This document shows, one piece after another, positions 2,310 to 17,118 of a DNA stretch of 64,000 nt. The DNA is from Verrucomicrobiota bacterium (GTDB lineage Bacteria; Verrucomicrobiota; Verrucomicrobiia; Limisphaerales; PALSA-1396). Every line of letters starts with the position of its first letter. Position 1 is the stretch's first letter. The notes beneath the pieces are model-generated. The model had not been told where the DNA came from. It searched no databases and saw only the letters and a program-made list of their open reading frames with translations. The DNA is taken from contig JACQFP010000050.1 in the NCBI GenBank assembly GCA_016200005.1, positions 1 through 64,000 on the forward strand. Reading direction: 5' to 3'. A program made the translations under genes and the position numbers.

Positions 2310-2602
2310 GTCGGCCGAATCAGAAGTGGCTGGAGAAACTGTCAGGGTGCTTCGTTCTGCTGCGATGGTTTAAGTTGGCGTCCACCTTGGACGTTTTGCT
2401 TTCCGGTAAACAACCCGCCCGGCTTTCGATCAAGAAACGCCGACATCTTTTCCCGTCCGTCGCGAGCCTTGACTTCGCGCGCCCACGCTTCCAAGATGCC
2501 GATGGTATGGGCCGGAAATCCTTTTTCCTAAAACATCGCCCGGGCGGGCTCCGGGAGGAAAGGCTGTTTCCTGTTTCCATTCCAGAAAGTGAAGGGTTTT
2601 AT

Positions 2603-3097
2603 ATGGAAAGTAAGATGTGGCGGTCGTGTTTGGTGGCAGCGTTGGTCGGGGTTTCTTTGTTCCTCCGGGTAACACCGGTCTGGAGTCAGGATCGCGACGA
2701 ACCTGGCGCGCGGCTTGAGCGCTTGGAACGACGCGTTAATGAAATGGCCGAACGCCAGGAACAACTCCTGCGCCGGCTTGGTGCTCAAATGGAACACCAA
2801 AGGGCGATGATCCCGCCAGGAGCCGAAAACTTCCGCGCGCCGCTGCCGCCCCCCGGCGTGCCGGCACGGGGGCCGCAAAACCCACACGCCGCGAGGGTGG
2901 CGAAGGGCTTGCATGATGCGTTGGGACTGCTCTTCCTCATCGGAATTATCTGCAACATCCTGCTCACGATCTGGATTTTCACCGATATCCGGAAGCGCGG
3001 CGAAGGCTCGGGCATCTTCGTAGCGCTGGCGCTGGTCGCGGGGATTCCGGCGGCAATCATTTACTCGCTGGTGCGACTCGGCGACAAGAAAACCTGA
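2603..3097 (+). CDS. Small membrane protein with N-terminal coiled coil
   Basis: The open frame extends back to 2375, but ATG 2603, preceded by a gaagg ribosome-binding site, begins a convincing signal sequence (MESKMWRSCLVAALVGVSLF), giving 164 residues. After the signal there is a short heptad-like coiled coil (LERLERRVNEMAERQEQLLR), a Pro-rich linker, then two membrane helices (LLFLIGIICNILLTIWIF and IFVALALVAGIPAAIIYSLV) separated by a charged turn. The last segment resembles the PLDc_N-type membrane module found alone in many bacteria. Function unknown. The preceding ~290 bp (2310-2602) holds no gene I can support. Confidence 0.6.
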   Translation: MESKMWRSCLVAALVGVSLFLRVTPVWSQDRDEPGARLERLERRVNEMAERQEQLLRRLGAQMEHQRAMIPPGAENFRAPLPPPGVPARGPQNPHAARVAKGLHDALGLLFLIGIICNILLTIWIFTDIRKRGEGSGIFVALALVAGIPAAIIYSLVRLGDKKT

Positions 3098-13341: not shown

Positions 13342-14991
13342 TCATTCATTCTGCTTTTCCTGTTTTGGCTCCAACAATTCATCGATGCGGACGAATTGGT
13401 AGCCTTTGCCGGTAAGATAATCGAGCAGTTCACCGAAGTGGGTATGGAATTTGTCGGCTCGGCTCGCCCCGGCGCCGAAATGAAAGGACAACAAGAATCC
13501 GTTCAGGCCGTTCGGGTCCTGTTGCTCTTTGGCGACGATGCTGTCGAAGATGGCTTGTGATGAAACGAAATTCGTGTCGGCCTCGCCGGTGTAGTCCGCG
13601 TGCGAGAGTGTGCCTGCGGTGGGGTTGACGATTGTCATGTCATGATCGCAAGTCCAGTCTGCAATTTCTCGATTGTAATGTTCGTAGGGTGGCAAAAGAT
13701 ACTTTGACCGGAAGCGATAACTCCAGCGATCAATGGAATCATCGGCCCGCCAAATCTTATAACGATTTTCGTACAGGTCCCGCGTGAACTTTTTACGTGA
13801 AACCAAAGTTGTTTTCGAATCGCCCCATGAGCAATAAAGCAGGTGCTTATCGGAATGCACTCCGAGGTCGTGCCCATCTTCAACAATCTGGTGAACCAAG
13901 TTCGTAAATTTGGGATTGTCGAGAAAGTCGCCCGTGAGGAAAAACAAAGCCTTGGCCTTGTGCGTCGCCAGTGCCGTTAATATGGTTTCTCCGCCTTCGG
14001 CAAATTCGTGTCCGGCAAGCAAGAGGGCAATCTTCTTGTCGCCTTTCGGTCCACGGATGATCGCCCCATCACATGTCTCGCATTGAATTCTGATTACCGC
14101 TTCCGCGGCATGCTTGCGCACCCACTCATCGTTGTCTTTTACAGCATTTTGAAGAAAGGGTAGTGCACGGCTTGCATCGTCTCCGAATAAACCGAGTGAC
14201 TGGACGGCATTTCCTCGCACGCGCGCATCCGAGTCGGACGTTCTTTTCATCAACAATGGCACTACGACCTTTGGCTCCAGTGTAATTTTTCCCAGAGAAT
14301 AAGCCGCTGGCCCGCGAACATCCGGGCTGGCGTCGTCAAGCGCCTGCATCAACGCAGGCACCGCGTCTCGTGCTTTGCTCCTCAATTTACCTAAACAGCG
14401 TATCGCTAACTCACGGACCTCAATGTCGGCATTAGTCATGGCGTTGATAAATATTGGCACGGCTCTGTCGCTGTCTGTACCCAGTAAAGCGTGCAATGAA
14501 TACCTGACGACTTCAGAATGCCCGCTTCTGATTAACTCCTGGCTGTTGATTATTTCGCGCAATGCCGGAATAGCTGGCTCTGCGGACTGGCCCAACGCCT
14601 CAAACGCATACACTGCCCTTTCTCTCTGGAACCAAGCGAAATTATGTGGAACGTGAATGTAAGACGGAATGCGAAAGTAAATTTTATTCCAGAATTCCCA
14701 CAGTTTCATTTCGAACGCAGTATCCTTTGATTGTAGATCCTTCAACAGAAATGGAATTGCGTTGGTTCCAATCTGCCTGATGGCCTCGGCAGCTTTCTCG
14801 TCCTGCTCAGATTCGTGATATTTACTTGTGCGAATTTGAAAATCCCTGAGCCACGCACTCAATCGTCTTCCCTGATAAACCGGCTCGAGAGGTTGCCTGA
14901 GGTAAACCGCAACACCCGCAATTGCGATTGCCAGCAGAATAACAAAGATGATACGACGGCGCGTGCTCACGGTGAGTAAGAGTTCGCCCAT
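13342..14991 (-). CDS. Membrane-anchored HEAT-repeat / polysaccharide deacetylase-like fusion
   Basis: 549 residues. An N-terminal membrane anchor ([20 protein letters not shown]) is followed by four to six HEAT repeats (about residues 65-305; e.g. [34 protein letters not shown]) and then a NodB-like domain (about 315-540). In the NodB part the zinc motif HSDKH is present ([13 protein letters not shown]), and [10 protein letters not shown]-type and HADYTGEAD motifs match a divergent deacetylase subfamily, but motif 1, usually a TFDDG or GDEF-like sequence, reads AGHEFAEGG. Whether it deacetylates glycan is therefore uncertain. GTG 14970 is an alternative start. Anchor plus HEAT scaffold suggests a periplasmic complex. 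Confidence 0.75.
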
Positions 14992-15079
14992 TTCTGTTGG
15001 GCGCTAATAGAAATCTGTCAGAATTATGACCAGAATCAACGCTTGACCGGCAGGGGATTGAGGAATTATTCTGCTTCCC

Positions 15080-15157
15080 GTGAATTTGAATGTGGCATTA
15101 CAAGTAGTTACTCTGGTCGTCGTAGTCGGCGAAGCCGGGGGTGCTTGTCGCGCCTAA
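15080..15157 (+). CDS. Valine/leucine-rich leader peptide of the ilvB attenuator
   Basis: A 25-codon frame (GTG 15080; alternative GTG 15092) encodes a peptide containing [11 protein letters not shown] and ends at TAA 15155-15157. Seven of ten consecutive codons (15104-15133) specify Val or Leu. The frame is open from 15062 and the part upstream of 15080 is also Ile/Leu-rich (IILLP), with a gagg sequence at 15060-15063, so a non-canonical start such as CTG 15071 is possible. The peptide resembles IvbL/IlvL leaders of enterobacteria in composition and position. It is followed by mutually exclusive hairpins and then ilvB. The start codon is the uncertain part; the reading frame and context are strong. 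Confidence 0.75.
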
Positions 15158-15205
15158 GTAGAATTTCGACAAGAACCCACGGCTGGCAACGGCTGTGGGT
15201 TTTTT
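15133..15205 (+). promoter_or_regulatory. Transcription attenuator upstream of ilvB
   Basis: Segment 15133-15150 (region 2) can pair with 15167-15184 (region 3) at 16 of 18 positions, forming an antiterminator; region 3 can instead pair with 15192-15201 to form the terminator. Region 2 overlaps the last codons of the leader peptide, and the stop codon lies in the loop between regions 2 and 3. Ribosome stalling at the Val run (15104-15127) would leave region 2 free and favour read-through; completion of the leader would cover region 2 and favour termination. This is the classical trp/ilv attenuation geometry. Confidence 0.8.
15174..15205 (+). terminator. Rho-independent terminator of the ilvB leader
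   Basis: A 10-bp stem (15174-15183 with 15192-15201, one G-U pair), an 8-nt loop and six T residues (15200-15205). It lies 35 bp before the ilvB ATG, inside the leader rather than at a gene end. Confidence 0.88.
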
Positions 15206-15240
15206 ATTGCCCGCACCACCAGCCAAAACACTGGAACGTT

Positions 15241-17118
15241 ATGAGCAAAACAACTGCGATTGCTGAAAAGAAGAAACCTGCCGCCCGCGAGCGCGCCGAG
15301 GTCGGTCCGCCGATGTTGGGGAGCGAAATCCTGGTGGCTGCGCTGGAACGCGAAGGCGTCGATACGATTTTCGCCTATCCCGGCGGCGCGAGCATGGAGT
15401 TCCATCAGGCGCTGACCAAGTCGAAGAAAATCCGCACGATTCTTCCGCGTCACGAGCAGGGCGGCGCGTTTGCGGCCGAGGGTTATGCCCGCGCGACCGG
15501 CCGCGCCGGCGTCTGCATGGCCACCAGCGGGCCGGGCGCGACCAATCTCGTCACCGGCATCGCCGACGCGTACATGGATTCGATTCCGCTTGTGGCCATC
15601 ACCGGTCAAGTGCCGCAGGCGATGATCGGCAAAGGCGGTTTTCAGGAAACGGATTTCTTCGGGTTGACGCTGCCTATCGTGAAGCACAGTTATTTGGTGA
15701 CCGACGTGAACGACATTCCACGCGTCATCAAGGAGGCGTTTTACATTGCGCAGACGGGTCGGCCGGGGCCGGTCGTCGTGGATGTGCCCAAGAACGTGCA
15801 ACAGACCAAGGCGCAACCGGTGTTTCCGCGCGAGGTCCATCTGCGCGGTTACAATCCGATGAAGAAGGCGGATGATCTTGCACTGAACGAAATCATCGGG
15901 TTGATCGAGAAGGCCGAGCGGCCGGTGCTGTATTGCGGCGGCGGGATCATCAGCGGCAACGCGAGCGAGGAATTGCGGCAGTTTGCCGAGGCGACGCAGA
16001 TTCCGGTGACGACGACGATCATGGGTTGCGGCGCGTTTCCGGAGACGCATCCGCTGTCGTTGCGCTGGCTGGGCATGCACGGGACCGCGTACGCGAATTG
16101 GGCGGTGAGCGGCGAGTTCAAATATAGGGAGAAGCTGACCGACCCGATGATCAAGGTGAAGGATGGCGCGGATTTGCTGCTGGCGTTTGGCGTGCGCTTC
16201 GACGACCGCGTCACGGGCAAGGTGGACAAGTTTTGTGAGACGGGCACGATTGTGCACATCGACATCGACACGTCCGAGCACAACAAGAACCGAAAAGTGC
16301 AACTGGCCATTGAGAGCGACATCAAATACGCACTCGGTCGCCTGGCGGAAATGGTGAGGAAGCGGCCGATTCAAAAGAAGTTCACCGCGTGGCACCAGCA
16401 AGTTGCCGAGTGGAAGGAACGGGCGCCGTTTCAGTACCGCGTCACTGACGAAGTGATCAAGTCGCAACACATGCGTGATCATCTGGAGGGCAAAGCCGGC
16501 GAGGTGATTCTGCCGCAGATGGTGATCGAGATGTTGTACGAGATGACGAAGGGCGAAGCGATTCTCACCACAGGCGTCGGCCAGCATCAGATGTGGGCGG
16601 GGCAGTACTACAAATACAAATTTCCTCGTCAATTCTTGACGAGCGCAGGGCTGGGTGCAATGGGCTACGGCTACCCGGCCGCGTTGGGAGCGAAGGTGGC
16701 GTGTCCGGATCGACAGGTCATTGACGTGGACGGCGACGGTTCGTTCCTGATGAACATCCAGGAACTGGCGACGGCGCACATTGAAAAGATTGCGGCGAAG
16801 GCAATCATCCTGAACAACCAGCATCTCGGCATGGTGGTGCAATGGGAGGACCGTTTCTACGCCGGCAATCGCGGTCACACTTATCTCGGCGATCCGGAAA
16901 ACATGAAACAGATTTATCCGGATTACGTTGCGATGGCCAAGAGTTTCAATGTGCCGGCGGAACGGGTCATGTACAAGCGAGACTTGCGCGCTGCACTGCA
17001 GCGGATGCTCGATTCAGACCAGCCGTATGTGCTTGATGTCATCACGCCTTACACGGAACATGTGTTGCCGTTCATTCCTGCCGGCAAAACAGTGGCGGAC
17101 ATGATCTGGAAGCCGTAA
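15241..17118 (+). CDS. ilvB: Acetolactate synthase large subunit
   Basis: AHAS catalyses the first common step of branched-chain amino-acid synthesis (2 pyruvate to acetolactate) using thiamine diphosphate. ATG 15241 gives 625 residues; the frame extends to 15043 but that part crosses the attenuator. Motifs: [16 protein letters not shown] with the catalytic Glu in [36 protein letters not shown], the central FAD-fold region ([15 protein letters not shown]), and the ThDP/Mg motif [13 protein letters not shown] ... [16 protein letters not shown]. About 30 N-terminal residues are a basic extension. No ilvN regulatory subunit or ilvC follows; the next gene is an unrelated secreted protein, so the holoenzyme partner must be elsewhere. 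Confidence 0.97.

Follow-up and report, generated by a model that had tools for sequence, protein, structure and literature searches.

Most documented cases of transcription regulation by attenuation within a translated leader come from Proteobacteria and Actinobacteria and from some Firmicutes, and a 2010 survey stated that leader-peptide attenuation was known only in the first two of these before its own Firmicutes cases (PMC2965389). The ilvB leaders described in Actinobacteria (C. glutamicum ilvBNC, ilvB-II motif; Streptomyces ilvL; M. tuberculosis ilvB1) consist of a short BCAA-rich uORF, a terminator and an antiterminator (PMC10272879, PMC11857589, PMC13236596). Leaderless BCAA leaders have been reported for both ilvB and leuA in Streptomyces (PMC8079986), and a report known to us by its title (Morbach 2000, cited in PMC4046766) describes a C. 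glutamicum Val leader peptide that is formed without a ribosome binding site. The ilvB-OMG and Leptospira ilvB motifs are ilvB leaders that are structured and probably contain BCAA uORFs (PMC10272879). In Sinorhizobium meliloti the attenuator RNA of trpL (rnTrpL) starts directly at the AUG codon of its leader peptide and has functions in trans (PMC7298713).

An initial annotation of the window (the whole stretch of 64,000 nucleotides analyzed here) had placed a classical ilv-type attenuator before ilvB and had called such control little documented in Verrucomicrobiota. A literature search that covered few subscription journals found no description of leader-peptide attenuation from this phylum. 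The attenuator itself is supported by its anatomy, conservation and covariation, and the picture is refined by a probable leaderless or near-leaderless start and by a twin before leuA. Judging from the sequence, we regard it as very probable that ilvB is controlled here by ribosome-mediated transcription attenuation, with the leader sensing charged tRNA-Val and perhaps charged tRNA-Leu as well.

Layout of the ilvB leader

The coordinates of the leader and its flanking features are given in Table 1. The short frame with a Val/Leu run was found where it had been annotated, and in the window sequence it has internal Val codons at 15092, 15104, 15107, 15116, 15119, 15122 and 15125 (7 of 25 codons) and Leu codons at 15086, 15098 and 15113. 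Also confirmed were the 18-nt antiterminator pairing and the overlapping 10-bp terminator with its six Ts, the terminator being formed by a core stem (15175-15184 with 15190-15199) plus an A-U extension. The stop codon, described as lying between regions 2 and 3, sits in the antiterminator loop. Among 300 dinucleotide-preserving shuffles of 15000-15240, none gave a short ORF with at least seven internal Val codons (best, six) and none gave an 18-nt pairing of at least 16 (best, 14).

Table 1. Features of the ilvB leader region in the window, and the leuA leader of the same genome
Feature	Position	Strand	Notes
-35 hexamer TTGACC	15043-15048	+	Promoter scan; all 56 aligned sequences have TTGAC, partly by construction since a TTGA[CT] anchor was used to find leader regions
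-10 hexamer TATTCT	15067-15072	+	Promoter scan; 18-bp spacer; predicted +1 near 15079-15080
Leader peptide ORF	15080-15157	+	25 codons, GTG start, TAA stop 15155-15157; probably leaderless; Val-rich ORFs at the equivalent site in relatives
Region 1	15100-15122	+	In the untranslated leader, forms a pause / anti-antiterminator hairpin with 15127-15148
Control codons GTA GTT ACT CTG GTC GTC GTA GTC	15104-15127	+	Six Val, one Leu
Region 2, antiterminator 5' arm	15133-15150	+	16 of 18 Watson-Crick pairs with region 3
Region 3	15167-15184	+	Antiterminator 3' arm and terminator 5' arm at once
Intrinsic terminator 3:4	15171-15205	+	GC-rich core 15175-15199, T6 15200-15205
ilvB, acetohydroxyacid (acetolactate) synthase large subunit	15241-17118	+	ATG 15241; TIGR00118, 684 bits (cut-off 538)
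leuA leader	L208 (own genome C18), about 1251-1380	reverse complement	Predicted near-leaderless, Leu-rich VNRNLNIRLLLLNALLLGRAAVGF*

The T6 ends 35 bp before the ilvB ATG. The upstream gene (13342-14991) is on the minus strand and diverges from ilvB, so the terminator does not end that gene but acts on a transcript begun in the intergenic gap. A simple terminator scanner did not call the ilvB leader terminator, probably because the stem runs into the T tract, and folds show the terminator clearly. The whole leader folded with a z of -2.3. The 1:2 hairpin, whose lower stem is imperfect, is the MFE structure of the untranslated window leader; in staged folds, masking the Val run before region 4 was made gave 2:3, and masking region 2 gave 3:4.

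The +1 of the window leader was placed from the usual distance between a -10 hexamer and +1. Relatives mostly have a TAnnnT -10 with a 17-bp spacer, and the start codon, sought 3-25 nt after the -10, lay 6-12 nt after it in 72 of 76 leaders, with the predicted +1 zero to six bases upstream of the start. No plausible Shine-Dalgarno precedes GTG 15080, and a core Shine-Dalgarno within 15 nt of the leader start was present in only 2 of 76 leaders. This lack is not distinctive, since ilvB itself has a Shine-Dalgarno in just 3 of 52 relatives. Because the conserved promoter places +1 so close to the start codon, the mRNA on which the leader is translated is probably leaderless or nearly so. A classical attenuator on a leadered mRNA, with translation starting upstream of 15080 (for example at a CTG or ATT near 15065-15071 behind GAGGA), seems unlikely. 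The GAGGA at 15060-15064 is indeed in place 6 nt before an in-frame CTG at 15071, but this stretch sits in the predicted spacer from -35 to -10 and shows no conservation, and relatives have an ATG or GTG at the spacing given above, rarely with a Shine-Dalgarno.

Conservation and covariation in relatives

Using the window IlvB as query we obtained 80 named loci; almost all come from Verrucomicrobiota, and many carry the label Limisphaerales or Pedosphaera. The initial annotation had proposed looking in relatives for conserved Val codons upstream of ilvB and for covariation among the pairing segments, and had held that a lack of leader or hairpin conservation in close relatives would speak against an attenuator. 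A script found the promoter, Val-rich leader ORF and terminator in 75 of the 80 relatives, in addition to the window. Conservation of promoter, leader, antiterminator and terminator extends throughout the order, clearly the opposite of the refuting outcome. In three others (L010, L011 and L016) the element was visible by eye, two of these being partial at contig ends, and the sequence of L042 begins inside the ilvB gene. L064, a complete chromosome, has no leader before ilvB (2601-3000) and is a natural loss of the leader. Leader sequences differ greatly among relatives yet keep the Val run: 62 of 76 leaders have at least three consecutive Val, all four Val codons are used, and the residue shares over the 76 leaders are Val 26%, Leu 9% and Ile 3%.

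Two groups of loci stood out. Nine contigs that carry a Limisphaerales-type ilvB and leader (L007, L009, L024, L031, L032, L036, L047, L054 and L057) are titled Akkermansia muciniphila, Klebsiella pneumoniae or Proteobacteria and are probably mislabelled metagenome bins. Ten loci (L037, L040, L043, L045, L046, L048, L049, L070, L072 and L078) form a subgroup whose terminator is distinct (CCCACGACC...GGTCGTGGG) and whose leaders end in CCG or CCE.

A covariance model spanning the Val run to the T-run matched 240 of 249 genomes of the order (E up to 0.01), including 151 of the 154 of good quality. When 388 genomes sampled evenly from the phylum were searched with it, only the two of them that belong to the order gave strong matches, and the next match (2.3e-7) had an unrelated context. 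Two weak matches outside the order were checked and rejected, one (G088) being surrounded by genes for ribosomal proteins and RNA polymerase and the other (G174) resembling an ordinary gene-end terminator. A scan of 59 regions upstream of ilvB, taken from other families in the class and the phylum, showed the combined architecture in none. Among these 59 regions, G335 has a terminator and a Leu/Val ORF upstream of ilvB, and G365 has a Val-rich ORF. The element looks like an old, stable trait of the order.

The sequence elements, their conservation, their complementarity and their covariation were observed directly. In the 56-sequence alignment, 97% of cells were paired for the terminator pairs and 82% for the 1:2 hairpin, in which 9 of 13 pairs had changed on both sides. 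The antiterminator pairs were paired in 74.9% of cells versus 34-55% in slid versions. The number of 2:3 pairs changed on both sides was unexceptional, 112 of 500 redealt shuffles being as high, whereas the number of both-side-changed cells and the covariation score were exceptional (0 of 500 as high). A count of antiterminator pairs in MFE folds (76 of 76) was dropped because a lax control reached 53%, and a duplex-energy test was used instead; the region 2:3 duplex had an energy of -21.8 kcal/mol versus -11.1 kcal/mol with shuffled region 2 (mean z -4.7).

At one pair of the antiterminator, 42 sequences have C-G and 10 have U-A, and the U-A label requires five changes on the IlvB tree, all five being forced by well-supported branches. 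The change from C-G to U-A arose several times independently, and the covariation that had been proposed as a check is present in the antiterminator. One of these changes separates the window (C-G) from its nearest relative, L004 (U-A), whose IlvB is 97% identical. At the DNA level these two are 90% identical in ilvB, 95% in region 3 plus the terminator, 60% in the leader codons and 50% in region 2, and both retain the 2:3 pairing despite the divergence of region 2. Across 15040-15166 as a whole, promoter and leader are just 50-60% identical to L004, while the terminator and ilvB are 90-95% identical; the cause may be either rapid drift or recombination with a breakpoint in the leader.

Proposed mechanism and the leuA leader

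We infer the transcription start, translation, stalling and direction of the response as follows. RNA polymerase would start at about 15079-15080, and a ribosome would initiate on GUG 15080, right at the 5' end of the RNA or close to it and with no Shine-Dalgarno to guide it. When Val-tRNA is short, the ribosome would stall in the Val run (15104-15127), keeping region 1 unpaired and leaving region 2 free; 2:3 would then pair before region 4 is made, no terminator would form and ilvB would be transcribed. When Val-tRNA is plentiful, the ribosome would reach the UAA at 15155 and cover region 2, so that 3:4 would form and transcription would terminate at T6. If the leader is not translated, 1:2 would form and termination would be allowed again.

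The anatomy of an attenuator is no proof of regulation, since a Streptomyces coelicolor ilvB leader similar to that of the window is, as cited in PMC1262725, unresponsive to codon mutations. It is thus conceivable, though quite improbable, that the leader and terminator set a constant read-through, or give rise to a trans-acting small RNA or peptide like the S. meliloti trpL RNA and peptide with their trans roles (PMC7298713), with no regulation by valine. The antiterminator pairing, however, is retained, and outside the Val run the peptide changes rapidly (DNA identity with the nearest relative is 60%, versus 90% for ilvB), which argues against a peptide that acts through its own sequence. 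A switch that works without translation (riboswitch, T-box or RNA-binding protein) and has its Val codons by accident is also very improbable: competing structures are present, as with any terminator switch, but the 5' half retains a Val-rich coding frame while its sequence drifts, the leuA leader has Leu in place of Val, and a search of Rfam up to E 5 gave no match to the leader, ilvB-linked families and T-box included, the best scores being far under the cut-off (NsiR1, 19.9 bits with a cut-off of 39; His_leader, 19.3 bits with a cut-off of 49).

Attenuation through amino acid sensing is argued for by leuA, where the control codon shifts from Val to Leu with the gene. The leuA of the window's own genome is preceded by TTGACG-17-TACTTT-7-GTG and the Leu-rich leader listed in Table 1, followed by antiterminator and terminator hairpins. 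A strict pattern, in which the start had to lie 4-13 nt after the -10, recovered the same design at 17 of 30 leuA loci of the order (own included); the start lies 6-7 nt after the -10 in 14 of these 17, and the start codon is GTG in 14 of 17. A leuA leader of matching design is also carried by G297. The own-genome leuA (G000:C18:3966-5165) has an open frame of 435 codons versus about 550-600 in relatives, possibly a frameshift or assembly error. The ilvN gene (G000:C65:9766-10236) adjoins ilvC on another contig, away from ilvB, and the two acetohydroxyacid synthase subunits are therefore encoded apart. With the pattern used, no leaderless leader was found at ilvN-ilvC or at two trpE-like genes of this genome.

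Comparison with known systems

We lean towards the view that attenuation through near-leaderless leaders, with Val for ilvB and Leu for leuA, is order-wide and order-specific in the Limisphaerales and arose independently of its proteobacterial and actinobacterial counterparts. If the ilvB leader is the attenuator proposed here, a textbook mechanism of other phyla would extend to the little-studied Verrucomicrobiota and to nearly every sampled member of this order. It would imply that these uncultured hosts couple transcription and translation closely enough for attenuation, and that translation in these bacteria starts on leaderless or near-leaderless RNA. The order-wide occurrence and the natural compensatory changes provide a ready comparative test set, and the leaders should guide annotators of many metagenome-assembled genomes to the site of ilvB and leuA regulation.

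The ivbL of E. coli (ilvBN) may be considered, by analogy, the functional counterpart of the window leader. Both have a Val-rich leader (MTTSMLNAKLLPTAPSAAVVVVRVVVVVGNAP* in ivbL) with the Val run just before the stop and a GC-rich terminator directly before ilvB, and no sequence likeness was seen outside the Val run. The ivbL of E. coli has a 5' leader before its start codon, whereas the start codon in the window lies at or near the predicted +1; ivbL precedes ilvBN, whereas ilvN does not adjoin ilvB in the window genome. The window leader had no match to the ilvB-linked Rfam families (up to E 5), which sets it apart from ilvB-OMG and Leptospira ilvB. The S. meliloti trpL is leaderless, as is predicted for the window leader, but has Trp in place of Val and known functions in trans. 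The initial annotation had assigned the geometry to that of proteobacterial attenuators, and this holds for E. coli ivbL, but the predicted leaderless layout is nearer to that of Actinobacteria (PMC8079986, PMC4046766). With the actinobacterial ilvB leaders the window leader shares the uORF, terminator and antiterminator and, by prediction, a leaderless or near-leaderless layout, and it differs from them in phylum, in its longer, mostly Val peptide and in having its own hairpin sequences. Actinobacteria thus offer precedents for leaderless leader peptides at both ilvB and leuA, and what is new is the host group, the Verrucomicrobiota.
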